Shown one piece after another: positions 8,200 through 31,851 of a DNA stretch of 64,000 nucleotides. The notes under the pieces are model-generated. The model had not been told where the DNA came from and searched no databases. It saw only the letters and a list, made by a program, of their open reading frames with translations. Both the position numbers and the translations under genes were made by a program. Source of the stretch: Panopea generosa (taxonomy: Eukaryota; Mollusca; Bivalvia; Adapedonta; Hiatellidae); contig CM055901.1 of assembly GCA_029582155.1 (NCBI GenBank), positions 20,129,597 through 20,193,596 of the forward strand. Direction: 5' to 3'. Within the stretch, counting starts at the first letter, position 1. The number at the start of each line of letters is the position of its first letter.

Positions 8200-8308
8200 A
8201 GTTTCCAAAAGAAGTTGAAAATTTCAGCTGTGTTGTCCACGACTATGACAAAGATATGAACTGTTCCTGGACAGTTCCAATGAAGTATCCCAATGTTACC
8301 ACACTATG
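8200..8308 (+). CDS. gp130-like receptor: D1 of cytokine-binding module, first half (exon B)
   Basis: The acceptor atatttcag ends at 8199 and the donor GTATGT begins at 8309. It is 109 nt, phase 1 in and phase 2 out. The first codon joins exon A as G+AG (Glu). The peptide carries NFSCVVHDYDKDMNCSWTV, that is C-x10-C-x-W, the hallmark of the first disulfide of class I cytokine receptors. Sequons NFS, NCS and NVT. The last codon is TG plus one base from the next exon, and both candidate next exons supply G, giving Trp. Its last 15 nt and first 18 intronic nt are the seed sequence of the large array at 9308-13304. Confidence in the exon is high. Confidence 0.9.
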
Positions 8309-8326
8309 GTATGTTGTATGTCTAAC

Positions 8327-9307
8327 CAGGCCTTCTAAAATTCCAAAATGCAAATCGATCCAGGTTTTTTACTACCGTAAGAATCGCACTTAGTTTTAAA
8401 AAAATCACTAAAATTGCCTTACATTATGCCATTACATATATGCATACCCCACCCACCATGTCAACTGCATCGTGTATTTCTCCGTTTATTTATTAATAGG
8501 AAACGATTTCAAGTTTATTTGTGTATTATTTATAATATACTTTATCACAATGTGTACATTTTAATGACTGACATTATGTTTCCCCTTTACTGAATAATTT
8601 TCATTACATTAAAAATGTTCCATCGAACCGGAAGTGATGCAAGTTCCGGAAGCTGCGTGAAATAATCACCGTGGAAACCAATGTAATGGTTCAACCACCA
8701 AAATAAATCATTCAGAACCTGTCCCACATCAAAACAAAATCGGTCCGGGTTCTATCACTTTCATTAATTAATGTCATTAATTTTATAATTAAAGTTATTT
8801 TTTTAAAAAAATGAAACAAACAAGTAACACTGGATGTTTTATCAAATATTTTAATGACGCAAACAATATTTGGTCCGATCGTTTTAGCTTTGGCTAGCGG
8901 TATATCAAAGAAATATTGAACGCAAACACAGTCTTTTGATGAACCGACAGAACGCGTCACTGATCACACATCGAAGGCATGCTACATAGCGATAGACTCT
9001 TCCAATAAATTCCCCTAATACCGTCAATGGATTAGTCGAAATTGACATCATTTCGCACAGCAGGTGACAAAACAAACGGATTATTGGGTCAAATGATATT
9101 GCCGCAAGGCTTATTTCGCAGGTCAGTATGGCATGGTAAGAGCAATTTATGAGATTTTATACGACCGATAGAAAATATCTGGACCGATTTTTTATTGAAC
9201 TTTGAAAATATCTGGACCGATTTTTTATTAAACTTTGAAACGAAAACCGGTTTTGAACTTCAGAAATCGGTCCAAAAACCGAAAAACCGGCAATTTTAGA
9301 AGGCCTG
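8327..9307. mobile_element. hAT-type non-autonomous DNA transposon
   Basis: A perfect 16-bp terminal inverted repeat CAGGCCTTCTAAAATT (8327-8342) is matched at 9292-9307. An exact 8-bp target duplication TGTCTAAC lies at 8319-8326 and 9308-9315. The 8-bp duplication and CAG-starting ends are typical of hAT elements (established knowledge). The 981-bp interior has no transposase ORF. It is inserted 18 nt inside the intron after exon B, splitting the first unit of the donor-like minisatellite from the rest. Confidence 0.85.
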
Positions 9308-12300
9308 TGTCTAACACTACCACACTATGGTATGTTGTATGTCTAACACTACCACACTATGGTATGTTGTATGTCTAACACTACCACATTATGGTATGTT
9401 GTATGTCTAACACTACCACACAATGGTATGTTGTATGTCTATCATTGTTACCACACAATGGTATGTTGTATGTCTATCATTGTTACCACACTATGGTATG
9501 TTGTATGTCTAACACTACCACATTATGGTATGTTGTATGTCTAACACTACCACACTATGGTATGTTGTATGTCTAACACTACCTCACTATGGTATGTTGT
9601 ATGTCTAACACTACTACACTATGGTATGTTGTATGTCTAACACTACCACATTGTGGTATGTTGTATGTCTAACACTACCACACAATGGTATGTTGTATGT
9701 CTAACACTACCACACAATGGTATGTTGTATGTCTATCATTGTTACCCAACAATGGTATGTTGTATGTCTAATACTACCACATTATGGTATGTTGTATGTC
9801 TAACACTACCACACTGTGGTATGTTGTATGTCTAACACTACCACACAATGGTATGTTGTATGTCTATCATTGTTACCACACTATCATATGTTGTATGTTT
9901 ATCACTGTTACCACACAATGGTATGTTGTATGTCTTTCATTGTTACCACATGATGGTATGTTGTTTGTCTATCACTGTTACCACACGATGGTATATTTTA
10001 TGTATATCACTGTTACCACACAATGGTATGTTGTATGTCTTTCATTGTTACCACATGATGGTATGTTGTATGTCTGTCACTGTTACCACATGATGGTATG
10101 TTGTATGTGTATCATTGTTACCACACAATGGTATGTTGTATGTCTATCACTGTTACCACACGATGGTATGTTGTATATCTATCACTGTTACCACACGATG
10201 TTATGTTGTATGTCTTTCATTGTTACCACACTATGGTATGTTGTATGTCTTTCATTGTTACCACATTATGGTATGTTGTATGTCTATCATTGTTACCACA
10301 CTATGGTATGTTGTATGTCTATCACTGTTACCACACAATGGTATGTTGTATGTCTTTCATTGTTACCACACAATGGTAAGTTGTATGTTTTTCATTGTTA
10401 CCACATAATGGTATGTTGTATGTCTATTATTGTTACCACACTATGGTATGTTGTATGTCTATCACTGTTACCACACAATGGTATGTTGTATGTCTATCAC
10501 TGTTACCACACAATGGTATGTTGTATGTCTTTCATTGTTAACACACAATGGTATGTTGTATGTCTTTCATTGTTCCCACAAAATGGTAAGTTGTATGTCT
10601 AACATTGTTACCACACTATGGTATGTTGTATGTCTTTCATTGTTACCACAAAATGGTAAGTTGTATGTCTAACATTGTTACCACACAATGGTATGTTGTA
10701 TGTCTATCATTGTTACCACACAATGGTATGTTGTATGTCTATCACTGTTATCACACGATGGTATGTTGTATGTCTTTCATTGTTACCACACGATGGTAAG
10801 TTGTATGTCTATCATTGTTACCACACGATGGTATGTTGTATGTCTATCACTGTTACCACAGGATGGTATGTTGTATGTCTATCACTGTTACCACACGATG
10901 GTATGTTGTATGTCTATCACTGTTACCACACGATGGTATGTTGTATGTCTGTCACTATTACCACATGATGGTATGTTGTATGTCTATCACTGTTACCACA
11001 CAATGGTAAGTTGTATGTCTATCACTGTTACCACACAATGGTTTGTTGCATGTCTATCACTGTTACCACACGATGGTATGTTGTATGTCTATCACTGTAA
11101 CTACACTATGGTATGTTGTATGTCTATCACTGTTACCACAGGATGGTATGTTGTATGTCTATCACTGTTACCACACGATGGTATGTTGTATGTCTATCAC
11201 TGTTACCACACGATGGTATGTTGTATGTCTGTCACTATTACCACATGATGGTAGTTGTATGTCTTTCATTGTTACCACACAATGGTAAGTTGTATGTCTA
11301 TCACTGTTACCACACAATGGTTTGTTGCATGTCTATCACTGTTACCACACGATGGTATGTTGTATGTCTATCACTGTAACTACACTATGGTATGTTGTAT
11401 GTCTATCACTGTTACCACACAATGGTAAGTTGTATGTCTTTTATTGTTACCACACAATGGTATGTTGTATGTCTATCATTGTTACCACACTATGGTATGT
11501 TGTATGTCTATCACTGTTACCACACGATGGTATGTTGTATGTCTATCATTGTTACCACACAATGGTATGTTGTATGTCTATCATTGTTACCACACAATGG
11601 TATGTTGTATGTCTATCATTGTTACCACACTATGGTATGTTGTATGTCTATCACTGTTACCACACAATGGTATGTTGTATGTCTATCATTGTTACCACAC
11701 AATGTAAGTTGTATGTCTATCACTGTTACCACACTATGGTATGTTGTATGTCTATCATTGTTACCACACTATGGTATGTTGTATGTCTATCACTGTTACC
11801 ACACGATGGTATGTTGTATGTCTATCACTGTTACCACACAATGGTATGTTGTATGTCTATCATTGTTACTACACAATGGTATGTTGCATGTCTATCACTG
11901 TTATGACACGATGGTATGTTGTATGTCTATCATTGTTACCACACGATGGTATGTTGTATGTCCATCACTGTTACCACACAATGGTATGTTGTATGTCTAT
12001 CACTGTTACCACACGATGGTATGTTGTATGTCTATCATTGTTACCACACTATGGTATGTTGTATGTTTATCACTGTTACCACACAATGGTATGTTGTATG
12101 TCTATCATTGTTACCACATGATAGTATGTTGTATGTCTATCATTGTTACCACACTATGGTATGTTGTATGTCTATCACTGTTACCACATAATGGTATGTT
12201 GTATGTCTATCATTGTTACCACACAATGGTAAGTTGTATGTCTTTCATTGTTACCACACAATGGTAAGTTGTATGTCTATCATTGTTACCTCACGATGGT

Positions 12301-13304
12301 AAGTTGTATGTCTATCACTGTTACCACATGATGGTATGTTGTATGTTTTTCACTGTTACCACACAATGGTAAGTTGTATGTCTTTCATTGTTACCACACA
12401 ATGGTAAGTTGTATGTCTATCATTGTTACCACATGATGGTAAGTTGTATGTCTATCACTGTTACCACATGATGGTATGTTGTATGTCTATCACTGTTACC
12501 ACACTATGGTATGGTGTATGTCTATCATTGTTACCACATGATGGTATGTTGTATGTCTATCACTGTTACCACACGATGGTATGTTGTATGTCTATCACTG
12601 TTACCACACAATGGTATGTTGTATGTCTTTCATTGTTACCACACAATGGTAAGTTGTATGTCTATCATTGTTACCACATGATGGTAAGTTGTATGTCTAT
12701 CACTGTAACTACACTATGGTATGTTGTATGTCTATCACTGTTACCACAGGATGGTATGTTGTATGTCTATCACTGTTACCACATGATGGTATGTTGTATG
12801 TCTATCACTGTTACCACACTATGGTATGGTGTATGTCTATCATTGTTACCACAGGATGGTATGTTGTATGTCTATCACTGTTACCACACGATGGTATGTT
12901 GCATGTCTATCATTGTTACCACACAATGGTAAGTTGTATGTCTATCACTGTTACCACATGATGGTATGTTGTATGTCTATCACTGTTACCACATGATGGT
13001 ATGTTGTATGTCTATCACTGTTACCACACTATGGTATGGTGTATGTCTATCATTGTTACCACATGATGGTAAGTTGTATGTCTATCACTGTTACCACACG
13101 ATGGTATGTTGTATGTTTTTCACTGTTACCACACGATGGTATGTTGTATGTCTTTCATTGTTACCACACAATGGTAAGTTGTATGTCTATCATTGTTACC
13201 ACATGATGGTAAGTTGTATGTCTATCACTGTTACCACATGATGGTATGTTGTATGTCTATCACTGTTACCACACGATGGTATGCTGTATGTCTTTCATTG
13301 TTAC
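9308..13304 (+). repeat. Minisatellite of about 115 units copying the exon B 5' splice site
   Basis: The unit is 32 nt at the left (to about 9850) and 35 nt after that. The core is accacactatg|gtatgttgtatgtctaac. The bar marks the position of the exon B donor, whose authentic intron start is GTATGTTGTATGTCTAAC (8309-8326). Many units carry gtaagt instead of gtatgt. All three forward frames are open over long spans (up to about 290 codons) because neither unit length is a multiple of 3 and no stop occurs in the unit; these ORFs are artefacts of the repeat. Confidence 0.95.
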
Positions 13305-13575
13305 AGATAGACACTGTTTATGTCAGGTTAGATTGATATGGACACTGTTTGTGTCAGGTTAGATTGATATGGACACTGTTTATGTAATGTTAGATTGATA
13401 TAGACACTGTTTATGTCAGGTTAGATTGATGTGGACACTGTTTATGTCAGATTAGATTGATAGCGACACTGTTTATGTCAGGTTAGATTGATAAGAACAC
13501 TGTTTAAGTCAAGTTAGATTGATATGGACACTGTTTATGTCAGATTAGATTGATATGGACACTGTTTATGTCAGG
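13305..13575. repeat. 31-nt tandem repeat, about 9 units
   Basis: The unit is aggttagattgatatggaca followed by ctgtttatgtc. It starts directly where the 35-nt array ends and seems unrelated to it. Confidence 0.9.
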
Positions 13576-14340
13576 AAATATGTCTGCAAATGAAAACAAA
13601 TAAATAGGAATAAATAATGTAACATTAATAATAATTTAATCAAACATTCATCATTTAGAATTAAACATTTTGCATGAAGAGTTTTTGAACTTGTTGATTT
13701 TCCATACATTTGCAATGAGTCCTTGCCTCTCATATGACAATGTGATTTGACAGTCAAAAAAAAGCATATGAGAAATAACACTTAAACACAAAAAGATACA
13801 AAAAAAGATATACATGTAATACTAAAACACATGAGATGCAAAAACGTATATGAGAAATAATACTTAAAACACATGAGATGCAAAAAAGAGATATAATACT
13901 TATATATATGAAATTGAAAAAAAAACACTATCAGATACAGAAAAACACATGAGATACAAAATAATCCCAGTAGGGATACCAAAACACAAGGTATGATAGT
14001 GAAACACATTTTCAAAAATGTGGGTGTATTAGAGTCCAAACAAAAATCTTTTTTTTAAAGAATTACACAAAAGTATTGTTTATTAAATGTTTCCCCAAGA
14101 AAATACACCCAACAAGTAATTTTCTTTTTACTGATAAAACAATATTTTTAAGGTCAAATTTGTTTGGTGGGTGAGGGTAGGAGTGCGGGGGAAATTATTA
14201 AGAAAGGAGCATTTATGTGAGGGAATACAGTATTTAAACACCTAAAAGATACATTAGTAAACACATTTTTATTTTAATTTTCCCTATGAGACTGCAATGG
14301 TGAAAGTGTACTTAAATAAGAAAATGTTTGACCACTGCAG
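13576..14340 (+). other. Intron end without recognised features
   Basis: AT-rich, with a few loosely repeated aaacacatgagatgcaaaa pieces at 13800-13970. It ends in the acceptor ttgaccactgcag of exon C. No other exon or RNA gene is visible. Confidence 0.6.
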
Positions 14341-14519
14341 GAAAATCACAAATTACAGCCTATGGACTGAGTTCAGTTCTAGTGAAAAGACATTCTCATA
14401 CATTGGATCAACTAATGATGGTTATTTCTCCATGAGGGACCTACAAATTAGAGTGACAGTGGCATCTGAATGTGAACGTAAAGTGATGTCCATTTATGAC
14501 GTCAATACAAGGAAAATAG
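14341..14519 (+). CDS. gp130-like receptor: D1 second half, alternative exon C
   Basis: The acceptor is gaccactgcag and the donor GTAATA follows 14519. It is 179 nt, phase 2 in and phase 1 out. The peptide starts KITNYSLWTE and ends YDVNTRKI (59 residues), completing the D1 beta-sandwich (MRDLQIRVTV as an F-like strand). It has one sequon (NYS) and a single cysteine (SEC). The canonical second Cys pair of cytokine-receptor D1 is absent; FSSSEKTFSY stands where exon D has a Cys pair. The next exon D has the same length and phases. Adding both would shift the frame, so C and D are predicted to be alternatives. Confidence 0.8.
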
Positions 14520-14552
14520 GTAATACTAAGTCTAACTGTATTTAATATAATA

Positions 14553-14731
14553 TACAGTCAACCCTGTCTTAAGCCAGTCAAGGGAATGAGCAAAAGTGGC
14601 CTTTTAAGACAGGTTGTTGCTTAATACAGGTAAACCTGCTCTGAAAACATAGAAATATGAAATAACAAATGTGGCGACTTAAAACAAGTGGCTGCTTAAT
14701 AGAGGTGACCGCTTGCACAGGTTTGACTGTA
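14553..14731. mobile_element. TA-flanked MITE in the intron between exons C and D
   Basis: Terminal inverted repeats TACAGTCAA ... TTGACTGTA with inner ccctgtctta/acaggtttga; 179 bp. TA ends suggest a Tc1/mariner-type MITE. It makes up two thirds of the 268-nt intron between the alternative exons. Without it the intron would be about 90 nt. Confidence 0.85.
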
Positions 14732-14787
14732 TAACAAAAATAATATGAAATTTTAATGTTTTGGTGTTGTTTTTTTCAATTTTTTAG

Positions 14788-14966
14788 GAGGATTACAAAC
14801 TTAAGCGGCAATAAATGGAGTAAATGTCCACAAGCTGGCGTAAACTTCTGTTTCTGGAATCAGAATGAAACAGGATTTACTCGTAAATACATAGAACTTG
14901 AGGTAAAGGTCAGAACCAAATGTGCACTTATAACCAGGCATTACTCCATCAATACACGGGATATAG
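14788..14966 (+). CDS. gp130-like receptor: D1 second half, alternative exon D
   Basis: The acceptor is caattttttag (AG 14786-14787) and the donor GTAACT follows 14966. It is 179 nt, phase 2 in and phase 1 out, identical to exon C. The peptide starts RITNLSGNKW and ends HYSINTRDI (59 residues). The shared ITN-x-S start and Y-x-x-NTR-x-I end show that C and D are duplicates of one ancestral exon. D keeps SKCPQAGVNFCFW, a C-x7-C pair like the second D1 disulfide of gp130-type receptors, and a third Cys (TKCAL). Sequons NLS and NET. D is the more canonical version; C has diverged. Joined to exon E the end reads DIVKPNP. Confidence 0.8.
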
Positions 14967-16837
14967 GTAACTAAATTGTGGATAAACCCGCCACACATCC
15001 CTCGTTGTGAAGCAATGTTATCCTCAGCAAAATCACTTTTAAACCCTTTTTACACCCAATGTAATCTACAACACAGTCTTGCTATCTACCCTATGTGAAA
15101 TAAAAAATAAGTATTTTTGTTAGTTTAAACTTATTTATTTTACTTTCGATTGTGAAACAAATTATTACAACTGATACAAATCACACTTGAAGTCTTACTG
15201 GATAGTACCAGTAATAAGCATATGTGGACAAAGTGTCTTGCTCAGACACCAGACATGGCCATGGTGGTGGATCGAATCCATGATCCTCCCATCTTGGATT
15301 CAATACTTTACCACCAGACCACGTGCTCCACAAGTTTTTTTGTGAGCACTACCAATCAACCAACAGCAAATATCTATGCTATCCCTTGTGAAATAGAACC
15401 ACAACCTTGATTATAATGCCTTTAAAAAGCTATTCTATCCTACAAGAATAATGCTAATGTATTATTATAATATAGCCAGCGTTTTTCCTCTCGCTTTGAA
15501 ATTGGGAGATGGGAGTCATTTGTCCCCATATTGGCATATTGGAGAATTTTAAGGATCATTTGATTAAATAATGTTACAACAATGCAAAAATGCCAACTTC
15601 AAAATTTGAGTGCAAATGATAAACCCTCTACAGGGGCAGATCCAGGATTTCATTTTAGAAGATGGGATTGCAACAATAGAATATTGGGTGATTATTGGGG
15701 CATGCACCATTTTAATTTAAAGATTAGGTCTGCCATTTGTTTTACAGAGTTTGTTCAGTTCAAATCATGACAAAATTAGTAAACAATACTCGGCACAACT
15801 AGACTATCCCATGTAAACTGATAAATGCCAGCATGTTTATATTGCCAGGCAAGCACTATATACAGCTACAAATATACTATCCTTTGAGATTTAATAACAA
15901 CACCATGTTATAAAATTAAAAGCATAGACTCATGATCCTTTACCAAGTTTTATCAAATTATGGCTAAATTAGTTTATAACAGGAAGCATAATTATGCTAT
16001 CCTATGTGAGATGAAAAATACCAGCTTGTTTTTATTGCGAGATGGCTATGCTATCTTTACAGAAATAATAATATCGCCTTGTTATACATAGAGCATAGAT
16101 CTATGGTTCTCTACCAACTTTGATGAAATTATGACAAAATTAGTTTAAAATATTAATAGTGATATATATATATATATATATATATTATAGCACAGGGGCA
16201 TAGACACAAATTGTATATTGGACTAAATATTTTACAAAACTTGTAATTTTGTAGACTTCAAAATGAGCAGCAACAGTGGTGGTGGTAGTCCAAAAATGCC
16301 ATCTTTGTCCAAATTTAAGATAATTATAAAATGAGGGAAAAATGGAAAATATTGGTGCAGCATACAAAATAAATTTTAAAAAAGTGGAAAGTAGCTAAAT
16401 ATTTAGAAAGAAATTGGAATTATTGGTGGGGCATGCTGCACGAATGCTGCACCATGATGCAGTATCCATGTCTACGCTGATGTAGCACAGATCCATGGTT
16501 AATCAAATTATGACAAAATTAGTTTATCCTGTGTGAGATGAAAAATACCAGCTTGTTTATATTGCCAGCTGAGCACTACAAACAGCTATGCTATCCTATG
16601 TGACACAACAGGCAACATGTTGACAATACTGGAATACGGAACTGAAAAACAACTTTGTGTTTGTTTACATTTCTTGTTTTCACAGGTCAACAAGTTTACA
16701 GAGCACTGGCTTACCCAGCATGCATTATGAGATGAGGTGATAACTAAAACAAAAGTACATCTGCCCCTTGACCTCTGTTTGCGCTTTTTTGTGTGTGCTT
16801 GTAATGAAACACGGCAATTTACTGTATTGTTATTTAG
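14967..16837 (+). other. Intron D-E, first part: SINE fragment, degenerate repeats, TA run
   Basis: 15215-15340 is a minus-strand tRNA-like SINE head: on the minus strand A-box-like tggtctggtggta and B-box-like ggattcgatcc. At 15430-16590 a loose repeat of about 270-500 bp recurs (tatgctatcctatgtgagat, ataccagcttgtttatattg). A (TA)n microsatellite lies at 16163-16185. No exon seen. Confidence 0.6.
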
Positions 16838-17372
16838 TACTGTAGAATCTGGTAAATTAGCACATAATTGAATATACACCAAAAGTAAGCACATAGAGCC
16901 TGACCATTATTCTGTATTGTCATAAGTGCATGTCAAGTTATTACCTTAATCAGGACTTATATAGAGAAGGAAAAGCAACTGGTTGAGATGTTATGAACAC
17001 GTGTATTCACACAAAATCTCGTTTTCGAATATCTTAACTTCCATTCATCTCAGGAATACTAATTAAAATTCATTCTTTGCACAATAGAATTCTCACAAAA
17101 TGAGACCATTCCCATCGAGTACTTATGGGTCCAAAATGTGTATACTGCAATTAAAAAATCAAGGAAAGTACTTGAAATTTTACCTCAGACTACAATATTT
17201 TATATTTTAAATTAAAAATCATTTTGTGTGTTTAAAGCATAATAAAACATCTAAGGTTACATTCACTTTACATTCACTTTACATTATTATGAAAAAGAAA
17301 CTTGAATGATTAATTATTCAGTAGAGAGATACAAGTTTCCTATCCTTCTTTATAAGTCTTTGCCTTAATTAA

Positions 17373-19300
17373 CCAGCTTTTTCAAAGTTGAAGATTGGCG
17401 AAGTTGGCGGGCGGGTGGGCGTATGGGCGGCGTCAAGTTTTTCGTTTCCATTCAGTTACTAGAATATTTTTAACCGGAACTGAAATAAACTTACACAAAG
17501 TGTGTACCTCTATAAAATCTAGGCCAAGTTTGAAAACCAGCCAATATGGACTATTATCTTCAGAGTTATGGTCCTTTAATTAGTCAAAAATGCTAAAATT
17601 GTCCATTTCTGCTCAATAACTAGAGTATTTTTTATCAGAACTGAAGCAAACTAATACAAAGTGTGAATGTCTATAAAATCTAGGCCAGGTTCAATAACAA
17701 GCCCTTTAAAGCAACACATCCACGTTTGAACTTTTAAAAAAAAAATTTAATTGAGTTATGAGCACATTTCCCATACAAACATATGATCAATTAGCTGTAT
17801 ATGAGCATATAAACACAATCCGAAACAAAATGACGCCCAAATTATGATGCGTGACTAACACTTTATAAAACAAGAGTGTAACTCACCTGAGTCAAAAAAA
17901 ATTGTCAAAATGATTTTCAAAGCAGGTAAAGTACACTACGCACTAAAACGTGAAGTTTTTTAATACGACTCGCATAATTCAATTTGAAGCCAAGTAGGAA
18001 TCCTCGGCAATTTAAAAATAATTTATAAAGGGTTTGTCACGCTTTATAATTTGGACATCTTTTTTATAATTCTAAAGCGTTCTGGATAGTGTTTGTTAGC
18101 ACATATACAGCTCACTAACCATATATTTATGTATGGAAAATGTGCTCACAACTCAAATGAAAAACTTTTTGAAAAAGTTTAAGTGTGGATGTGTTGCTTT
18201 AATTAGTAAAAAATGCTAAAATTGCCTGTTTCTGCTTAATATCTAGAGTATTCTTTATCAGAACTGAAGCAAACTTACACAAAGTGTGCATTTCAATAAA
18301 ATCTAGTTCAAGTTTGATAACAAGCCAATACGGACCATTATCTTCAGAGTTATGGCCCTTTAATTAGTCAGAAATGCTAAAATTGCCCGTTTCTGCTTAA
18401 TAACTAAAGTATTCTTTATCAGAACTCAAGCAAACTTACACAAAATGTGCATTTCAATAAAATCTAGTCCAAGTTTGATAACAAGCCAATACGGACCATT
18501 ATCTTCAGAGTTATGGCCCTTTAATTAGTCAAAAATGCTATAATTGCCCATTTCTGCCTAATAACTAGAGTATTCTTTATCAGAACTGTAGCAATCTTAC
18601 ACAACGTGTGCATTTCTATAAAATCTAGGCCAGGTTCGATAACCAGCCAATACAGACCATTATCTTTGGAATTATGGCCATTTAATTAGTCAAAAATGGT
18701 AAAATTGTCCGTTTCTGTTCAATTACTAGAGTATTCTTTATTAGAACTGAAGCAAACTTACACAAAGTGTGAATGTCTATAAAATCTAGGCTAAGTTCAA
18801 TAACCAGCCAATTCAGACTATTTTCTTTAGAGTTATGAACCTTTAATTAGTCAAAAATGCTAAAATTTACCATTTCCGCTCAATAACTAGAGTATTCTTT
18901 ATCTGAACTGATGCCAAGTTACACAAAGTGTGTATCTATAAAATCAGAGCCAAGTTCGATAACCAACCAATTCTGACCATTATCTTCAGAGTTATCATCA
19001 TGCATGGCCCTTTAATTAGTCAAAAATGCTAAAATTGATTGTTTCCACAACCAAACTTTTACAAATTTTTTAGCAGTAAAGTAAAATTAATCTTTTTCTT
19101 TTGTTATTTTGATGAAGATACTAAAAAAGTTTTGATTAATGTATTGGTATATATTTAAATGAAACTCCATTAACATGCACATTTTTATCTTGAAAATGGT
19201 TTGCTGTGCCTTTGCTAAATTGATAGCCATGAGGCAAAAAATATTATAAAAAATACAAATGATTTATTAGAGAAATGCACCGGTCTGTTTAAATTTTTTA
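17373..19300. repeat. Dispersed 'ttatggccctttaattagtc' repeat element, copy 1
   Basis: It opens with gattggcgaagttggcgggc, then about eight units of 150-165 bp (agagtattctttatcagaac, gcaaacttacacaaagtgtg, gagttatggccctttaatta). It closes with a unique tail (gaagatactaaaaaagtttt, gatagccatgaggcaaaaa). The same head, units and tail recur at 51085-52200, so this is a defined mobile or amplified family and not a simple satellite. Confidence 0.75.
17710..18198. mobile_element. TTAA-flanked MITE (piggyBac-like) nested in the repeat
   Basis: AGCAACACATCCAC at 17710 and its complement GTGGATGTGTTGCT ending at 18198 form inverted ends. TTAA flanks both sides (17706-17709 and 18199-18202). The host unit 'gccctttaattagt' is restored when the insert is removed. 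TTAA duplication is the piggyBac hallmark. There is no ORF. Confidence 0.75.
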
Positions 19301-20649
19301 CAACACAGCTGAATTTCTCAAAATGTTTGATGCATTTGTAATATATTTGTAGAATCAAACATCGTGTTTAAGAAATTGTTTCTATCAGTTGAGCATGAGT
19401 GACTTACATCCTATCGGTGGGCACTGGAAACAATATTGCTACTTAAGCCTCAATGCAAAATGTGAAAATATTGATGTATTATTTTTATGCATGTTTGTTT
19501 CCGAGTATAATCACATTATATTTTTCATAATGTGAATTACGGAAGTAATATTTTAGCCAAACAACCAGGGAATAGCACAGAAACAAGAGAAAAACTTTAT
19601 TTTATGCTTTTTTAACAAAACTATTGCATCTATGTTTTACAATTAAAAAAACAAAATTTGAATTGTATGCTTTTTAATTTTCTGCTTCAATGTACATAAA
19701 ATTCTGGCATGAAATAGAGTTATAGTTACAGAATAGCTAAAATGTTTGAAAAACATAGTTTTCAGGGAATTTCCACGTTTCTTGTTTTGTCTCAAAATAA
19801 GGCACATATCCGAATGCAGGTATATACAAACAATTTAAAAGAGCAGCTACAAACTCATTAATGATCTTCATTAATACCATGATAATTGGTTATTGCAAAT
19901 AACAGATGCTTTGATGCTAGTAATTAATAACAGTAATTTCACTTTTTTGTGATCATCCAGTTTGCATCACACATGGAAAAAACTCCTTTTAAATAGAAAT
20001 CCTGATCCAGATAACGAAAAAATAGAAATTATACAAAAATTGTTGAAACCAGGAAAGAATATGTAAAAACTGCACATCAGTATTGTTACTTTTGTTTTCT
20101 CGACCAAGGTAAATTTTGTACAAATTGTCAAAAATAGACAGATATGGCTTATGTTTAAACATAACTGTATATTAAATATGAGCGCATAGTTTAGGATTAT
20201 AGAAAAATAAGGGCATAAAAGTGTCCCAAAAATTAAACATAAACACATACCCTTATTTACCAGATTCTACAGTATTTGAACCCATTAGAGCATCAGTGTG
20301 CTATGTGCCTGTATGTGTCATATCTACTTAGTGTCTTTATACTCCAAGAAGTCAACTTAGTTATTTATTTTCAGTTAATCTGTTATTGAACTGTTACTTT
20401 ATCTTTGATTAATACAAGATTATTACAATTACATGTATTGCATAAAGCTTTGAAAATACACTTACACAAAAAAAATAAATTCTTATCTGACAAAAACATT
20501 GTAAAATTAAAGGTCGTACACAAATGTCAAACGTTTTGCATTATTAATGTGGAGTTATTGTTCATTACAGTCAACATTTTGTTTAATAGATATACATATT
20601 GCTCTTTTCTTGGAATTTTTCGAAAATCCCTCTTATTGGATAACAGATA
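19301..20649 (+). other. Intron D-E, AT-rich stretch
   Basis: Apart from the right inverted end at 20252-20274 nothing is recognisable. Short ORFs on both strands have no domain signature. Confidence 0.5.
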
Positions 20650-23600
20650 TTGGTTATTGCAGTGACACTGTGCCATAACATTTATTTGTTATTGCAGTGA
20701 AGCTGTACTGTGACATTTATTTGTTACTGCATTGAAGCTGTACTGTGACATTTGTTATTGCAGTGAAGCTGTACTATGGCATTTGTTATTGCAGTGAAGC
20801 TGTACTGTGACATTTGTTACTGCAGTGAAGCTGTACTGTTACATATGTTATTGCAGTGAAGCTGTACTATGATATTTGTTATTGTAGTGAAGCTGTTCTA
20901 TGACATTTATTTGTTACTGCAGTGAAGCTGTACTATGACATTTGTTACTGCAGTGAAGCTGTACTGTGACATTTGTTATTGCAGTGAAGCTATATTATGA
21001 CATTTGTTATTGCAGTGAAGCTGTACTATGACATTTATTTGTTACTGCAGTGAAGCTGTACTATGACATTTGTGCCTGCAGTGAAGTTGTACTATGACAT
21101 TTGTTATTGCTGTGAAGCTGTTCTATGACATCTATTTGTTGTTGCAGTGACACTGTATTGTGACATTTGTTATTGCAGTGAAGCTTTACTATGATATTTA
21201 TTATTGCATTGAAGCTGTACTATGACATTAATTTGTTTTTGCAGTTAAGCTTTACTGTGACATTTATTTGTTATTGCAATGAAACTATACTATGACATTT
21301 ATTGGTTATTGCAGTGAAGCTGTACTATGACATTTATTTGTTATTGCAGTGAAGCTGTACTGTGACATTTATTTGTTGTTGCAGTGAAGCTGTACTGTGA
21401 CATTTGCTATTACAGTGAAGCTATATTATGACATTTGCTATTGCATTGAAGCTGTACTATTACAATTGTTATTGCAGTGAAGCTGTACTATGACATTTTA
21501 TTTGTTACTGCAGTGAAGCTGTACTATGACATTTGTGACTGCAGTGAAGCTGTACTATGACATTTTTTATTGCAGTGAAGCTGTTCTGTGACATTTGATA
21601 TTGCAGTGAAGCTGTACTGTGACATTTGTTGTTACAGTGAAGCTATACTTTGACATTTGTTATTGCAGTGAAGCTGTACTGTGACATTTGTTATTGCAGT
21701 GAAGCTGTACTGTGATATTTGTTATTGCAGTGAAGCTTTACTATGACATTTATTATTGCAGTGAAGCTGTACTATGACATTTATTTGTTATTGCAGTGAA
21801 GCTGTACTGTGACATTTGCTATTACAGTGAAGCTATATTATGACATTTGCTATTGCATTGAAGCTGTACTATTACAATTGTTATTGCAGTGAAGCTGTAC
21901 TATGACATTTTATTTGTTACTGCAGTGAAGCTGTACTATGACATTTGTGACTGCAGTGAAGCTGTACTATGACATTTTTTATTGCAGTGAAGCTGTTCTG
22001 TGACATTTGATATTGCAGTGAAGCTGTACTGTGACATTTGTTGTTACAGTGAAGCTATACTTTGACATTTGTTATTGCAGTGAAGCTGTACTGTGACATT
22101 TGTTATTGCAGTGAAGCTGTACTGTGATATTTGTTATTGCAGTGAAGCTTTACTATGACATTTATTATTGCAGTGAAGCTGTACTATGACATTTATTTGT
22201 TATTGCAGTGAAGCTGTACTATGACATTTATTTGTTTTTGCAGTGAAGCTGTACTGTGACATTTATTTGTTATCACAGTGATGCTGCACTATGAGATTTA
22301 TTTGTTATTGCAGTGAAGCTGTACTGTGACATTTATTTGTTGTTGCAGTGAAGCTGTACTATGACATTTACTTATTTATTATTGCAGTGAAGCTGTACTA
22401 TGACATTTTTTTGTTATTGCAGTGAAGCTGTACTGTGATATTAATTTGTTATTGCAGTGAAGCTGTACTGTGACATTTATTTGTTATTGCAGTGAAGCTG
22501 TGCTATGACATTTATTTGTTATTGCAATGAAGCTGTACTATGACATTTTTGACTGCAGTGAAGCTGTACTATGACATTTTTTATTACAGTGAAGCTGTAC
22601 TATGACATTTGTGACTGCAGTGAAGCTGTACTATGACATTTGTTATTACAGTGAAGCTGTACTATGACATTTGTTATTGCAGTGAAGCTGTACTGTGACA
22701 TTTATTTGTTATTGCAGTGAAGCGGTACTATGACATTTATTTGTTATTACAGTGAAGCTGTACTATGACATATATTTGTTATTTCAGTGAAGCTGTACTG
22801 TGACATGTTTTTGTAATTGCAATGAAGCTGTACTATGACATTTATTTGTTATTGCAGTGAAACTGTACTGTGACATTTATTTGTTATTGCAGTGAAGCTG
22901 TACTATGACATTTATTTGTCATTGCAGTGAAGCTGTACTGTGACATTTGTTATTGCAGTGAAGCTGTACTATGATATTTATTTGTTATTGCAGTTAAGCT
23001 GTTCTATGACATTTATTTGTTATTGCAGTGAAGCTGAACTGTGACATTTGTTATTACAGAGAAGCTGTACTATGACATTTATTTGTTACTGCAGTGAAGT
23101 TGTACTTTGACATTTGTTTTTGCAGTGAAGCTGTACTATGGCATTTGTTATTGCAGTGAAGCTGTACTATGACATTTGTTATTGCAGTGAATTTGTACTA
23201 CAACATTTATTTGTTATTGCAGTGAAGCAGTTCTGTGACATCTATTTGTTATTGCAGTGAAGCTGTACTGTGACATTTGTTATTGCAGTGAAGCTGTACT
23301 ATGACATTGATTTGTTATTGCAGTAAAACGGTACTGTGACATTTATTTGTTATTGCAGTAAAGCTGTACTGTGACATTTGTTATGACAGTGAAGCTGTAC
23401 TATGACATTGATTTGTTATTGCAGTAAAGTGGTACTGTGACATTTGTTATGCAGTAAAGCTGTACTGTGACATTTGTCATTGCAGTGAAGCTGTACTGTG
23501 ACATTTGTTATTGCAGAGAAGCTGTACTGTGACATTTATTTGTTATTGCAGTGAAGCTGTAATATAACATTTGTTATTGCAGTGAAGCTGTACTGTGACA

Positions 23601-26600
23601 TTTATTTGTTAGTGCAGTGAAGCTGTACTGTGACATTTTTTATTGCAGTGATGCTGTACTATGACATTTGTTATTGCAGTGAAGCTGTACTGTGACATTT
23701 ATTTGTTATTGCAGTGAAGCTGTACTGTGACATTTATTTGTTATTGAAATGAAGCTGTACTATGACATTTGTTATTGCAGTGAAGCTGTACTATGACATT
23801 TATTTGTTATTGCAGTGAAGCTGTAATATAACATTTGTGACTGCAGTGAAGCTGTACTATGACATTTGTGACTGCAGTGAAGCTGTACTATGACATTTGT
23901 TATTGTAGTGAAGCTGTACTATGACATTTGCTATTGCAGTGAAGCTGTACTGTGATATTTGTTATTGCAGTGAAGCTATACTGTGACATTTATTTGTTAT
24001 TGCAGTGAAGCTGTACTATGACATTTGTTATTGCAGTGAAGCTGTTCTATGACATTTGTTATTGCAGTGAAGCTGTACTATGACATTTGTAATTGCAGTG
24101 AAGCTGTACTGTGACATCTGTTATTGCATTGAAGCTGTACTTTGACATTTGTTATTGCAGTGCAGCTGTACTATGACATTGGTTATTGCAGTGAAGCTGT
24201 ACTGTGACATTTATTTGTTATCGAAATGAAGTTGTACTGTGATATTTGTTATTGCAGTGAAGCTGTACTATGACATTTATTTGTTTTTACAGTGAAGCTG
24301 TACTGTGACATTTGTTATTGCAGTGAAGCTGTACTGTGACATTTGTTATTGCAGAGAAGCTGTACTGTGACATTTATTTGTTATTGCAGTGAAGCTGTAC
24401 TATGACATTTGTTATTGCAGTGAAGCTGTACTGTGACATTTATTTGTTAGTGCAGTGAAGCTGTACTGTGACATTTGTTATTGCAGTGATGCTGTACTAT
24501 GACATTTGTTATTGCAGTGAAGCTGTACTGTGACATTTATTTGTTATTGCAGTGAAGCTGTATTGTGACATTTGTTATTGCACAGAAGCTGTACTGTGAC
24601 ATTTGTTATTGCAGTGAAGCTGTACTATGACATTTGTTATTGCAGTGAAGCTGTACTATGACATTTAATTGCTATTGCAGTGAATCTGTACTATGACATT
24701 TGTGACTGCGGTGAAGCTGTACTATGACATTTGTTATTGTAGTGAAGCTGTACTATGACATTTGTTATTGCAGTGAAGCTGTACTGTGATATTTGTTATT
24801 GCAGTGAAGCTGTACTGTGACATTTATTTGTTATTGCAGTGAAGCTGTACTATGACATTTGTTATTGCAGTGAAGCTGTTCTATGATATTTGTTATTGCA
24901 GTGAAGCTGTACTATGACATTTGTAATTGCAGTGAAGCTGTACTGTGCCATTTGTTATTGCAGTGAAGCTGTACTTTGACAATTGTTATTGCAGTGCAGC
25001 TGTACTATGACATTTATTTGTTATTGCAGTGACGCTGTACTGTGACATTTATTTGTTATTGAAATGAAGTTGTACTGTGACATTTGTTATTGCAGTGAAG
25101 CTGTACTATGACATTTATTTGTTATTGCAATGAAGCTGTACTATGACATCTATTTGTTATTGCAGTGAAGCTGTACTGTGACATGTATTTGTAATTGCAA
25201 TGAAGCTGTACTATGACATTTATTTGTTATTGCAGTGAAGCTGTACTGTGACATTTATTTGTTATAGCAGTGAAGCTGTACTAAGACATTTGTTATTGCA
25301 GTGAAGCTGTACTATGACATTTATTTGTTTTTGCAGTGAAGCTGTTCTATGGCATTTATTTTTTATTGCAGTGAAGCTGTACTATGACATTTGTTACTGT
25401 ATTGAAGCTGTACTATGACATTTATTCATTACTGCAGCAAAGCTGTACTGACATTTATTTGTAATTGCAGTGAGCTGTACGCTGTACTTTGACACTTATT
25501 TGTTATTGCAGTGAAGCTGTCCTATGACATTTATAAGTTATTGCAGTGAAGCTATGCTGTGACATTTGTTGTTGCAGTGAAGCTGTACTATGGCATTTGT
25601 TATTGCAGTTAAGCTGTACTTTGTTATTGCAGTGAAGCTGTACTGTGACATTAATTTGTTATTGCAGTGAAGCTGTACTATGACATGTATTTGTTATTGC
25701 AGTGAAGCTGAACTGTGACATTTGTTATTACAGTGAAGCTGTACTATGAAATTTGTTATTGCAGTGGAACTGTACTATGATATTTATTTGTTATTGCAGT
25801 GAAGCTGTACTATGACATTGATTTGTTATTGTAGTGAAGCTGTACTATGATATTTATTTTTTATTGCAGTGAAGCTGAACTGTGACATTTGTTATTAAAG
25901 TGAAGCTGTACTATGGCATTTATTTGTTATTGTAATGAAGCTGTACTATGACATTTGTTATTATGGTGAAGCTGTACTATGACATTTATTTGTTATTGCA
26001 GTGAAGATGTACTATGACATTTATTTTTATTGCAGTGAAGCTGAACTGTGCCATTTGTTATTACAGTAAAGCTGTACTATGACATTTATTTGTTATTGCA
26101 GTGAAACTGTACTGTGACATTTATTTGTTATTGTAGTGAAGCTGAACTTTGACATTTGTTATAACAGGGAAGCTGTACTATGACATTTATTTGTTATTGC
26201 AGTGAAGCTGTACTATGACATTTATTTGTTATTGCAGTGAAGCTGTTCTATGACATTTATTTGTTATTGCAGTAAATCTTTACTATGACCTTTGTTATTG
26301 CAGTGAAGCTGTACTATGATATTTATTTGTTATTGCAGCGAAGCTGTTCTATGGCATTTATTTGTTATTGCAGTGAAGCTGTACTATGACATTTGTTACT
26401 GTATTGAAGTTGTACTTTGACATTTATTTGTTATTGCAGAGAAGCTGTACTGACATTTATTTATTATTGCAGTGAAGCTGTACTATGACATTTATTATAT
26501 CCCTGACAAACGAAGTTTGAGGGGGTATATTGGAGTCACCCTGTGGTCGGTCTGTCGGTCTGTCTGTCGGTCGGTCGGTCGGTCGGTCTATCCGTTGCAA

Positions 26601-28170
26601 TTTTCCTTGTCTGGAGCATCACTTGAAAAGTACTAGATGGAATTTCATCAAACGTCATACAATGGTAGAATATAATGAGAGGAAGTGCAGTGTACAAGAA
26701 ACATAACTCTATTCTTGCTAATTACAGAATTATTGCCCTTTGATATTTTTTCTTGTCCGGAGCATGACTTTAAAAGTACCTGATGGAATTTCATCAAGCT
26801 TCATACAATGGTAGAATATAACGAGAGGAAGTGCAGTGTACAGGAAACATAACTCTATTCTTGCTAATTACAGAGTTATTGCCTTTTGATATATTTACCT
26901 TGTCCGGAGCATTACTTTTAAAGTACTGGATGGAATTTCATCAAACTTCATACAATGGTAGAATATAATGAGAGGAAGTGCAGTGTACAGGAAACATGAC
27001 TCTATTCTTGCTAATTACAGAGTTATTGCCCTTTGATATATTTCCCTTGTCCGGAGCATTACTTTTAAAGTACTGGATGGAATTTCATCAAACTTCATAC
27101 AATGGTAGAATATAATGACAGGAAGTGCAGTGTACAGGAAACATAACTTTATTCTTGCTAATTACAGAGTTATTGCCCTTTGATATATTTCCCTTGTCTG
27201 GAGCATTACTTTAAAACTGTTGGATATAATTTAATAAAACTTCATACAATGGTAAACCATTTTCTGTCATGGAGGCGTTCGGGGGGTATTCATCACCTTC
27301 AGTGATAGCTCTAGTTTGTTATTGCAGTGAAGCTGTATTATGATATTTATTTGTTATTGCAGTGAAGCTGAACTTTGACATTTGTTATTGTAGTTAAGCT
27401 GTACTATGGTATTTGTTGTTGCAGTGAAGCTGTACTATGACATTTGTTATTGCAGTGAAGCTGTACTGTGACATTTATTTATTAGTGCAGTGAAGCTGTA
27501 CTATGACATTTATTTGTTATTGCAGTGAAGCTTTACTTTGACATTTGTTATTGCAGTGAAGCTGTACTGTGACATTTATTTGTAAGTGCAGTGAAGCTGT
27601 ACTATGACATTTATTTGTTATTGCAGTGAAGCTTTACTTTGACATTTGTTATTGCAGTGAAGCTGTACTGTGACATTAATTTGTTAGTGCAGTGAAGCTG
27701 TACTATGACATTTATTTGTTATTGCAGTGAAGCTTTACTTTGACATTTGTTATTGCAGTGAAGCTGTACTGTGACATTTATTTGTTAGTGCAGTGAAGCT
27801 TTACTTTGACATTTGTTATTGCAGTGAAGCTGTACTGTGACATTTATTTGTTAGTGCATTGAAGCTTTACTTTGGCATTTGTTATTGCAGTGAAGCTGTA
27901 CTATGATATTTGTTAGTGCAGTGAAGCTGTATGATAACATATAGTTGTTTATGCAGTGAATTTGTACTACAACATTTATTTGTTATTGCAGTGAAGCTTT
28001 ACTTTGATATTTGTTATTGCAGTGAAGCTGTACTGTGACATTTATTTGTTAGTGCAGTGAAGCTTTACTTTGACATTTGTTAGTGCAGTGAAGCTGTATG
28101 ATAACATATAGTTGTTTATGCAGTGAATTTGTACTACAACATTTATTTGTTATTGCAGTGAAGTTGTACT
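20650..28170 (+). repeat. Minisatellite of about 200 units copying a 3' splice site
   Basis: Units of 31 or 35 nt read ttgttattgcag|tgaagctgtactatgacatt with or without an extra attt. Each unit has a T-rich stretch, CAG, then TGAAGC. TGAAGC is also the first six bases of exon E (28823), whose acceptor is ttggttattatag. Long sub-blocks recur, for example about 21400-21760 again at 21800-22180, showing segmental growth. The array is interrupted by an unrelated insertion at 26496-27312. Confidence 0.95.
26496..27312. mobile_element. Insertion with five 120-bp internal repeats, Helitron-like ends
   Basis: It starts tatccctgacaaacgaagtt, then a GTCG/GTCT run, then about five units of 120 bp (cttgtccggagcattac, atggaatttcatcaaactt, aggaagtgcagtgtacagga). 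It ends gatagctctagtt. A TC start and CTAGT end with a nearby hairpin are Helitron-like, but exact host junctions are ambiguous in the repeat. The class is inference; the insertion itself is clear. Confidence 0.6.
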
Positions 28171-28822
28171 AATTTATATATTGGTTATTACCGTGAAGTT
28201 GTACTATATTATATATTGGTTATTACAGTGAAATTGTACTATATTATATATTGGTTATTATGGTGAAGTTGTACTATATTATATATTGGTCATAACAGCA
28301 AAGTTGTATTATATTATATACATGTTATTACAGTGAAGTTGTACTGTATTATATATTGGTTATTACAGCGAAGTTGTTTTATATTATATATGGGTTATTA
28401 CATTGAAGTTGTACTTTATTATCTATTGGTTATTACAGTGAAATCATACTATAAATATATTGGTTATTACATTGAAATCATACTCTATTATCTATTGGTT
28501 ATTACAGTGAAATCATACTCTATTATCTTTTGGTTATTACAGTGAAATTGTACTATATATATATTGGTTATTACATTGAAATCATACTATATAGATATAT
28601 ATTGTTTATTACAGTGAAATTGTACTAAATATATATTGTTTATTACAGTGAAATCATACTTTATATATATTGTTTATTACAGTGAAATCATACTCTATTA
28701 TCTTTTGGTTATTACAGTGGAATTGTTCTATATATATATATTGGTTATTACAGTGATTCATACTATATTATCTATTGGGTTTTACATTGAAATCATACTT
28801 TATTATAAATTGGTTATTATAG
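28171..28822 (+). repeat. Diverged acceptor-like units leading into exon E
   Basis: About 18 units of 36-40 nt read tatattggttattacag|tgaaattgtactatat, grading from the main array into the real acceptor of exon E (attggttattatag, ending 28822). Some upstream CAGs are in the same phase as the real one: predicted exon starts at 28649, 28718 and 28754 stay open through exon E. Confidence 0.85.
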
Positions 28823-28959
28823 TGAAGCCAAATCCTGTTGATGACCTACGAAGCAACACAATCAATAGTACATGTGTACTGGTCACATGGAAACCCAATG
28901 CGAAGCAGTATAAAAAAAGATACCATATTTCTTATACCAGTAAATGGGGTGATCCCGAG
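28823..28959 (+). CDS. gp130-like receptor: D2 of cytokine-binding module, first half (exon E)
   Basis: The acceptor ends in tag at 28822 and the donor GTAAGA follows 28959. It is 137 nt, phase 1 in and phase 0 out. The peptide begins VKPNPVDDLRS, matching the VKPNP linker that opens the second domain of gp130-family binding modules. It continues with an FN3 B-strand CVLVTWKP and C-strand KRYHISYTS. One sequon (NST). The Val codon is completed by the G from exon C or D. The two-exon coding of this FN3 domain (phase 1-0-1) is repeated in the next two FN3 domains. Confidence 0.9.
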
Positions 28960-30989
28960 GTAAGAGGTTATGAATTTCTTAGATGGGGTTCTTGTATTGC
29001 ACAGAAGGGAGACTGTATCTGAGCACTGACTTTAACTCTACTTATTTATACTTATTTATTTTTACTTGATTGCAAATTGTGTTTATAAAATTAAAAAACC
29101 ATTTTGTCTGATGCAAGCCCCCTGAACAATAATTTGAGGTTCAGTCATTGTATCATATATAGTATGAGTCGGTCATATAGGCGGCATGTTGATGCCATAT
29201 TGTTTGCTTGTTTGTCCATATCACTAGGATTGGTTTCATATCAATCTCTTTATATAAAAGGTAAATAGGAAACTGATTACTATTAACTGATTCTCATTAA
29301 ACTTTGTTTCAGAAGTAGCTAGGAAACTGTTTTGCAAATATATGTCTTATTAATCTATGTTTGAAAAATAGCTTGAAAACTGTTACACAAATGTTTCACA
29401 AATCTGTTTCAAAAGAAGCTAGGAAGTGAAACTGTTAGGTAACTTGTTATATAAATCTCTGTTTCAGAAATAACTAAGAAACTGTTAGGCAACATTTTAT
29501 ATAAATCTCTGTTTCAGAAGTAGCTAAGAAACTGTTAGGCAACATGTTATATGAATCTCTGTTTCAGAAGTAACTAAGAAACTGTTAGGCAACATGTTAT
29601 ATAAATCTCTGTTTCAGAAGTAGCTAGAAAACTGTTAGGCAACATGTTATATAAATTTCTATTTCAGAAGAAACTGTTTGGCAACATGTTATATAAATCT
29701 CTGTTTCAGAAGTAACTAAGAAACTTTTAGGCAACATGTTATATAAATCTCTGTTTCAGAAGTAACTAGGAAACTGTTAGGCAACATGTTATATAAATTT
29801 CTATTTCAGAAGTAACTAAGAAACTTTTAGGCAACATGTTATATAAATCTCTGTTTCAGAAGTAACTAGGAAACTGTTAGGCAACATGTTATATAAATAT
29901 CTGTTTCAGAAGTAACTAAGAATTTGTTAGATCTCTATTTCAGAAGTTACTAAGAAACTGTTAGGCAACATGTTATATAAATCTCTGTTTCAGAAGTAAC
30001 TAAGAAACTGTTAGGCAACATGTTATATAAATCTCTGTTTCAGTAGTAGCTAAGAAACTGTTAGGCAACATGTTATATAAATCTCTGTTTCAGAAGTAAC
30101 TAAGAGTTTGTTAGATAACATGTTATATAAATCTCTATTTCAGAAGTTGCTAAGAAACTGTTAGGCAACATGTTATATAAATCTCTGTTTCAGAAGTAAC
30201 TAAGAGTTTGTTAGATAACATGTTATATAAATCTCTATTTCAGAAGTTGCTAAGAAACTGTTAGGCAACATGTTATATAAATCTTTATTTCAGAAGTAGC
30301 TAAGAAACTGTTAGGCAACATGTTCAATATTTGTAAACAAACCTCACTTGTATCGGAAGCATTGTTTTATCATATATTTTTCTTTGCATTCAATGACCAC
30401 GTGGATACTGTTTGTAAATATTGCCAATTGTGCAGTAAGTTGAAATATGCGTGCTGGATATTCGTAATTATGGGAAGTGATCGATTTCAGGTGATGCTTG
30501 AAAACAGGTTACGGCACCATATATATACAATCTCAGAAACTGCTTAGCAAATGTCTATTTAGCTTTGTTTTAGAAGTAGTTAAGAAGCTTTTTGGCAAAC
30601 AATTTAGAAATCTCTGTTTAAGAAGTAACTGGGAAACACTTCGACAAATATTGTAAAATCTAGTAAAGAAACTTATGTGCTTATATTAGTTTTAGTGACA
30701 CTTACATGTGCTTATTATTGGTTAACACCTAACTATGCACCTATATTTGATATGGGCTAATACATGAGCCCTATGTGCCTATTTTTGACACTTTTATTAC
30801 AAAAGTAAAATACTAGTATTAACAGCCATGTGTTGGCACTACTTCCATTTATTTTATTTCTGCTTTCACAAATATTATTATATCAAATGTAGACATTTTA
30901 ACATGAATTAGTCAGTAAGTTCAACACAGTTTTTTATATATTTTTATATTTGAAATATATATTAATAATGTCAAACTTACATTGGACAG
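28960..30989 (+). other. Intron E-F
   Basis: It contains the 50-nt array (29280-30315). 30320-30500 is similar to 53410-53550 (tttgcattcaatgaccacgt, actgtttgtaaatattgcca), a dispersed repeat. 30540-30989 has a few diverged cagaagtag pieces and no other feature. Confidence 0.7.
29280..30315. repeat. 50-nt minisatellite, about 20 units
   Basis: The unit is gaagtaactaagaaactgtt + aggcaacatgttatataaat + ctctgtttca. Each unit has a T/C-rich stretch ending CAG (ctctgtttcag), another acceptor-like motif. It does not match the acceptor of exon F. Confidence 0.95.
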
Positions 30990-31155
30990 CTCAAGACACT
31001 CATTGACACCAAGGAAACCAAGCTTGAAAACAAAAATATAACAGTGTGTGACTTGGTGCCTTATACACAATACACGTTTACAGTGAAGGTACATCCATAC
31101 CGTGAGGGATATTGGAGTGACGAGAGACAGACAACAGCAACAACGAGTGAGAGCA
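30990..31155 (+). CDS. gp130-like receptor: D2 second half with WSXWS-like motif (exon F)
   Basis: The acceptor is acattggacag (weak pyrimidine tract) and the donor GTGAGT follows 31155. It is 166 nt, phase 0 in and phase 1 out. The peptide runs LKTLIDTKETK ... NITVCDLVPYTQYTFTVKV ... REGYWSDERQTTATTSES. LVPYTQYTFTVKV is the FN3 E-F strand signature. EGYWSDE aligns with the GYWSDWS form of the WSXWS motif in gp130-type receptors, with the second WS replaced by ER. This motif normally closes the cytokine-binding module. The last 117 nt or so are the source of the tandem copies downstream. Confidence 0.88.
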
Positions 31156-31225
31156 GTGAGTAGCATATCTTGTTGACCTTAGACTCATGGGGGTGGTGAT
31201 GGGGTGGGGGGTGAAAGTATTACAG

Positions 31226-31336
31226 TGTGTGACTTGGTGCCTTATACCCAGTACACATTCACAGTGAAGGTACATCCATACCATGAGGGGTATTGGAGTG
31301 ATGAGAGACAGACAACAGCAACAACCAGTGAGAGCA
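31226..31336 (+). CDS. Candidate cassette exon F2 (tandem copy of exon F 3' part)
   Basis: The acceptor is agtattacag and the donor GTGAGT follows. It is 111 nt and phase 1 at both ends, so it can be added between exons F and G without shifting the frame. It encodes CDLVPYTQYTFTVKV through EGYWSDERQ to TSES with no stop. It lacks the first 16 or so codons of exon F. Splicing is not proven; it could be unexpressed repeat DNA. Confidence 0.45.
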
Positions 31337-31406
31337 GTGAGTAGCATATCTTGTTGACCTTAGACTCATGGGGGTGGTGATGGGGTGTGGGGTGAAAGTA
31401 TTACAG

Positions 31407-31517
31407 TGTGTGACTTGGTGCCTTATACACAGTGCACATTCACAGTGAAGGTACATCCATACCACGAGGGGTATTGGAGTGACGAGAGACAGACAACAGC
31501 AACAGCCAGTGAGAGCA
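31407..31517 (+). CDS. Candidate cassette exon F3
   Basis: 111 nt, phase 1-1, acceptor ttacag and donor GTGAGT. Open, with QCTFTV in place of QYTFTV and TATASES near the end. Confidence 0.45.
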
Positions 31518-31600
31518 GTGAGTAGCATATCTTGTTGACCTAAGACTCATGGGGGTGGTGATGAAGTGGGGGGGGTGGGTGGGAGGTTAGAGTATTACAG

Positions 31601-31711
31601 TGTGTGATTTGGTGCCTTATACACAATACACGTTCACAGTGAAGGTACATCCATACCATGAGGGATATTGGAGTGACGAGAGACAGACAACAGCAACAAC
31701 TTGTGAGAGCA
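31601..31711 (+). CDS. Candidate cassette exon F4
   Basis: 111 nt, phase 1-1, acceptor agtattacag and donor GTGAGT. Open, ending TTCES. Confidence 0.45.
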
Positions 31712-31781
31712 GTGAGTAGCATATCTTGTTGACCTTAGACTCATGGGGGTGGTGATGGGGTGGGGGGTGAGAGTATTACAA

Positions 31782-31851
31782 CGTGTGACTTGGTGCCTTA
31801 TACACAGTGCACATTCACAGTGAGAGAGTACACGTTCTTGAGAGAGGTGAG
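31782..31851 (+). pseudogene. Broken cassette copy F5
   Basis: The acceptor AG is lost (ttacaac). About 60 nt including the WSD motif are deleted, leaving cacagtgagagagtacacgt before gtgagt. Confidence 0.7.

Follow-up and report, generated by a model that had tools for sequence, protein, structure and literature searches.

In a 64,000-nucleotide window of the Panopea generosa genome (contig CM055901.1; all positions below are those of the window), a gene for a gp130/IL6ST homologue harbors two long tandem arrays whose units copy the exon borders that they touch. One array repeats the 5' splice site of exon B, the other repeats the 3' splice site of exon E, and between them lie two exons, C and D, that are mutually exclusive by reading frame. 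On the basis of their sequence, we describe these two arrays and a third at exon F as "junction-seeded minisatellites", a name coined here. We favor, with a probability of roughly 0.62, the reading that the two arrays flanking C and D are tolerated passengers that the splicing machinery bypasses through exon definition. A sequence-only reading of the same DNA had given the order as exon B, donor array, exons C and D, acceptor array and exon E, which the exon model confirms on the + strand; it had missed that the arrays copy the two borders and that a 981-bp insert splits the donor array from exon B.

Array units copy the borders that they touch

The donor and acceptor arrays are the two longest tandem arrays in the window, and the window's tandem-array listing confirms the earlier claim that they lie in the introns flanking the C/D pair, each touching a constant exon. 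The first of these, exon B (8200-8308, + strand, 109 nt), encodes the first half of cytokine-receptor domain D2 and ends in phase 2 at ATG|GTATGT. The donor array (9309-13304, + strand) comprises 115 full units of ~32-35 bp, the 35-bp unit consisting of the last 15 coding bases of exon B together with its 5' splice site. GGT is intact in 111 of the 115 units, with GTATGT in 85 and GTAAGT in 20. When aligned with the exon B border (TGTTACCACACTATG|GTATGTTGTATGTCTA and a few bases before it), the unit consensus is identical at 32 of 34 positions and scores 58, as compared to a best of 38 among 1500 random segments and 16 for the next best of 24 borders.

The exon's own copy of the unit (8294-8326, + strand) spans the last 15 nt of exon B and the adjoining 18 nt of intron, and over 30 bases it recurs exactly four times in the array. 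It is parted from the array by the 981-bp insert (8327-9307, strand unassigned), which starts 18 bases past the exon B splice site, carries 16-bp terminal inverted repeats, is flanked by the 8-bp target duplication TGTCTAAC and is presumably hAT-like. When the insert is removed in silico, the exon B copy runs straight into the array units. Adjoining the donor array is a 31-bp array (13310-13575) whose consensus holds TTTATGTCAG|GTTAGA, an AG|GT arrangement that we take to resemble recursive splice sites.

The acceptor array (20648-28828, + strand) comprises 221 full units of ~31-35 bp with the consensus TTATTGCAG|TGAAGC and is interrupted at ~26497-27314 by other sequence with a 147-bp repeat. 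It touches exon E (28823-28959, + strand, 137 nt), which starts in phase 1 and encodes the start of domain D3 (VKPNP...). AG is kept in 194 of the 221 units. The series closes with the acceptor of exon E itself, and the final units keep their spacing and stand in register with the exon. Against this adjacent border, which was the one tested, the consensus is identical at 17 of 20 positions, six exon bases included, and scores 25 (p 0.0007), a value also reached by the best random segment; the next best border scores 17. The array block adjoining exon E is the most diverged, with a mean identity of 0.71 relative to 0.87-0.90 elsewhere, and the exon E copy resembles the nearest 12 units (identity 0.74) more than distant ones (0.63).

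A third array, at exon F (31043-33172, + strand), is built from the tail of that exon, including the residues WSDER, and its 5' splice site. The 181-bp unit is present 12 times, as the exon's own copy and 11 extra ones, and scores 115 against its own exon F border, where random segments reach at most 110. Exon F, the source of this array, does not face C or D. Nine of the 11 extra copies measure 111 nt (phase 1 to 1), seven of these nine are open and six of the seven keep an AG; use of these copies as mini-exons is unlikely because their acceptor scores are at most 1.4.

Eighteen unit types were compared in this way: those of the donor and F arrays beat every random segment, the acceptor unit stands at the top of the random range, and the best border scores of the other 15 have p values of 0.014 to 0.27 before correction for the 24 borders. 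These p values set the best of 24 borders against single random segments, such that a p of ~0.02 for the other arrays is meaningless. As splice-like sequence, the units are unexceptional by themselves (p 0.05 for the donor unit and 0.15 for the acceptor unit among random segments), and the claim thus rests on descent from the borders. At the level of sequence comparison, such descent of the splice motifs from the touched borders is shown, and the earlier description of the arrays as splice-site-like holds in the sense that they are border copies.

Tandem repeats that span 4 and 8 kb are difficult to assemble, which raises the alternative that the array lengths are largely an assembly artefact. 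We regard this as very improbable, as the numbers of distinct units (60 of 115 in the donor array and 158 of 221 in the acceptor array) speak against simple false expansion, although the array length itself may still be wrong despite this diversity.

Reading frame predicts a choice between two receptor exons

Exons A to L (+ strand, 882-48152) join into a single open frame that spans 11 exons: A, B, C or D, and E to L. Exon ends were placed by eye at AG/GT and kept where frame and homology agreed, and splice sites were scored with general base frequencies that had not been fitted to the host species. The ends of exon L are the least certain of the model (splice scores of -3.7 and 3.3). The encoded protein contains fibronectin type III domains (Pfam fn3, E 1e-27, three stretches). 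With either alternative exon it also matches D1-D3 of gp130 among solved structures, as A-B-C-E-F with exon C (E 3.2e-9) and as B-D-E-F with exon D (E 8.9e-9). These two features are shared with gp130/IL6ST; the differences are the two alternative second halves of D2 and the WSXWS position in exon F, which reads GYWSDERQ. With WSDER in place of WSXWS, we name the protein a gp130 homologue and not a strict class I receptor. The gene is thus a gp130/IL6ST homologue, presumably of an animal, and the repeats in the DNA suggest a bivalve. No convincing transmembrane segment was found downstream of exon L, the one weak candidate (52262-52344) not being accepted, and the gene may extend past the window end.

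The alternative exons C (14341-14519) and D (14788-14966) both lie on the + strand, are homologous and measure 179 nt each, and both run from phase 2 to phase 1, fitting the phase 2 end of exon B and the phase 1 start of exon E. The joins B-E and B-C-D-E both hit stops, so that including both exons or neither breaks the frame and one must be chosen. The mutual exclusivity that the sequence-only reading predicted is thus borne out by the frame. At the protein level, the alignment of C and D scores 53 with BLOSUM62, relative to at most 13 in 500 shuffles, with 16 of 61 columns identical; the ungapped DNA identity is 62 of 179, and the duplication therefore looks old. No third copy was seen among the matches listed in a window-wide search with C and D, where the best further C-like match (E 0.02) lies antisense in the acceptor array, a weak likeness taken as chance, and the best further D-like match has an E of 1.0. 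The intron between the two exons is 268 nt long and only 91 nt after removal of a 175-bp insert (14555-14729) that is flanked by TA and has inverted ends; these are the lengths that bear on a possible steric block by a very short intron. With a view to competing RNA pairing between a docking site and a selector, inverted pairs in 13300-20640 were counted: there are 27, and among the 25 listed one corresponds to the ends of this insert.

A weak exon C donor (score 3.5), together with the absence from C of the cysteine pair found in the matching stretch of D, could indicate that C/D is not a live choice and that one exon is a relic. However, C and D are both open, share the same length and phases, and are both compatible with a gp130 match, making this explanation distinctly improbable.

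In the structure-match alignments, the part of gp130 that corresponds to C and D is the second half of domain D2. PMC10920896 places F169 (murine numbering) in a groove of the D2-D3 hinge that accepts an IL-11 side chain. Counted along the A-B-C-E-F chain, residue 169 is a phenylalanine inside the D2 second-half stretch, the two residues being compared by number alone. That the use of C or D alters ligand binding is plausible rather than shown.

A comparable arrangement exists in U2AF1, where the neighboring exons Ab and 3 are likewise homologous and where, according to PMC5224494, a transcript that includes both exons, or neither of them, has stop codons and is degraded. The choice in U2AF1 is reported to rest on branch points, the polypyrimidine tract and a stem loop (PMC5224494). 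Splice-site arrays, present here, do not figure in the consulted sections of the U2AF1 account.

Tests of the arrays for a role in splicing

The sequence-only reading had also suggested, beside chance, that the arrays may take part in splice choice. As a mechanism, the donor array would hold U1 near exon B and the acceptor array would hold U2AF upstream of exon E, such that pairing is delayed and array length sets the C:D ratio. This possibility draws on the presence of arrays at both constant borders facing the pair and on the complete sites in most units (GGT and AG as counted above). It also draws on the strength of the donor units, of which 113 were scored: 82 equal the exon B site, 21 are stronger and 10 are weaker. 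Against it stand the similar array at an exon that does not face the pair, exon F, and the outcome of three kinds of test.

First, conservation of GT/AG above the other unit positions was not found in either the 115 donor or the 221 acceptor units. G+1 is lost in 2 of the 115 donor units and T+2 in none (permutation p 0.24, or 0.19 for a wider core), and the two AG positions vary in 2.3% and 10% of the 221 acceptor units relative to a mean of 7.1% (permutation p 0.43).

Second, folding of the arrays is unremarkable. In comparisons that used a home-made dinucleotide shuffle, the fraction as stable among arrays of shuffled units is 0.98 for the donor and 0.12 for the acceptor array; among plain shuffles, the values are 0.84 and 0.06. 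Single 281-nt pieces gave z values of +3.92 (donor) and -4.68 (acceptor) with the folding tool's own shuffles. Self-masking hairpins were dropped as a candidate because plain shuffling destroys the repeat and the repeat-aware values are unremarkable.

Third, pairing of the arrays with C, D or their intron is unexceptional and falls within the range of 228 other windows, the lowest fractions being 0.066 and 0.079; it was dropped as a mechanism. As a separate observation, the predicted pairing of the donor unit (8294-13304) with exon F (30990-31155) is stronger than its pairing with every one of those 228 windows. Exact array motifs had no matches in viral contigs (both arrays) or in prokaryote genomes (acceptor motif only).

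Conservation, folding and pairing tests, all computational, thus found no sign of function in the arrays, leaving the proposed role in splice choice unsupported and, in our estimation, unlikely. A broader version, in which both arrays form a length-variable rheostat whose longer forms shift C versus D or lower total receptor in the individuals that carry them, with unstable DNA tuning a ligand-binding module, is a speculation to which we give similarly little credence.

A different consequence could arise if some transcripts used array sites, gained stops and were degraded, in which case array length would tune the amount of receptor and not the isoform. Consistent with such a burden, 191 of the other 220 acceptor units score above exon E's own acceptor (1.4 for exon E versus a median of 5.5). 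In addition, 190 of the 193 array AG sites besides that of exon E would bring in a stop upstream of that exon's end, the three open sites lying near exon E (28648, 28717 and 28753). On the donor side, reading on from exon B into the intron gives 28 codons and then a stop that lies in the 981-bp insert. A minisatellite in the human gene 6-16 is said, in the title of a 1995 paper by Turri, Cuin and Porter, to provide multiple splice donors, which can be set beside this explanation. Exon definition, however, should favor the exon-proximal copies, and we consider a splicing burden possible but doubtful.

Probable origin and tolerance of the arrays, and their placement

The reading that we favor, in which the arrays are tolerated passengers, begins with short tandem duplications across the exon/intron border of exon B and the intron/exon border of exon E. 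Each duplication would have left an intact copy beside the exon and for that reason would have done no immediate harm. Slippage or unequal exchange could then have expanded the arrays into the introns, to ~4 and ~8 kb, the splice motifs being inherited from the borders and presumably not through selection for many sites. During splicing, the spliceosome would pair the nearest sites across the 109 nt of exon B and the 137 nt of exon E, as expected under exon definition, and the extra copies would thus be mostly ignored. C or D would be picked by other means, and nonsense-mediated decay would, to judge from the frame, remove transcripts with both or neither. We favor tolerance because the unit is the border itself, because the exon F array is alike, and because GT/AG show no extra conservation. 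Use of array sites would, moreover, mostly break the message, and the exon E acceptor is in register with the array and closer to the nearest units than to distant ones.

Several observations weigh against tolerance. The large majority of acceptor units that outscore exon E's own site (191 of 220) makes silent tolerance less obvious. The donor units differ little, and the conservation test consequently has low power in that array; their identity to the exon B copy is 0.90 throughout, with no gradient by distance. In some tests, arrays also lie at or near exon edges more often than random placement would give, with 4 of 18 at 30 nt or less compared with 0.32 at random (P<0.001), and edge tests on this edited list give P values from 0.0006 to 0.054. 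Finally, that two long arrays face the alternative pair is a notable coincidence, as the chance that 3 amplified ends of 24 include both facing C/D is 1.1%, a figure computed after the fact and for one gene.

The 18 arrays of the edge test were merged and trimmed by hand with short rows left out, and its distance limits were chosen after the data had been seen. Three of the 18 have an edge inside an exon, relative to a random mean of 1.05 (P 0.083). The 29 raw merged rows give a weaker signal, at P 0.019 to 0.35: three rows lie no more than 30 nt from an edge, as compared to 0.54 at random (P 0.019), and one lies no more than 20 nt away (P 0.35). The earlier argument from placement around the pair stands in that both facing borders are amplified, but it is a weak argument given a 1.1% figure obtained post hoc from one gene.

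Further repeats occur elsewhere in the window. The intron between exons E and F holds a 50-bp array (29428-30324) whose consensus includes the acceptor-like CTCTGTTTCAG, with no close border match here. Two short arrays (34598-34773 and 40145-40387) lie upstream of exons G and H, with 20 and 27 bases, respectively, between the array and the acceptor. Outside the receptor exons, a 59-bp array (63276-63671) carries the donor-like ATG|GTAAGA (p 0.046 among random segments). Two tRNA-Ala-like stretches (35196-35267 and, on the minus strand, 62909-62981) are probably the heads of a dispersed repeat.

Relation to known minisatellites and significance

The nearest precedent is the minisatellite of human 6-16 (IFI6/G1P3), which reportedly forms one donor array with a short unit. 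The likeness lies in tandem repetition at an exon border, each unit carrying a 5' splice site, and the difference is that the gene described here has both a donor and an acceptor array, several kb each, around an alternative pair. Tandem repeats in human segmental-duplication genes, as described in PMC2812944, are minisatellites with a mean unit of 30 bp and a mean of 4 copies. They may sit where an exon meets an intron and can alter gene structure, either by making exons and introns longer or by creating novel introns. They resemble the present arrays in their ~30-bp units at an exon-intron border, whereas the arrays here have more than 100 copies, are intronic and retain one exon-side copy. 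Among titles and the openings of abstracts in an open-licence library, we found no precedent for donor and acceptor arrays flanking an exclusive pair and, in a search with four terms combined, no paper on a bivalve gp130.

If the arrays are only tolerated, they provide a natural test of how the spliceosome chooses the true acceptor after ~190 stronger-scoring copies spread over 8 kb, and they suggest that exon borders can seed minisatellites. If they are instead functional, the length of an array would act as an inherited setting for a cytokine-type receptor.
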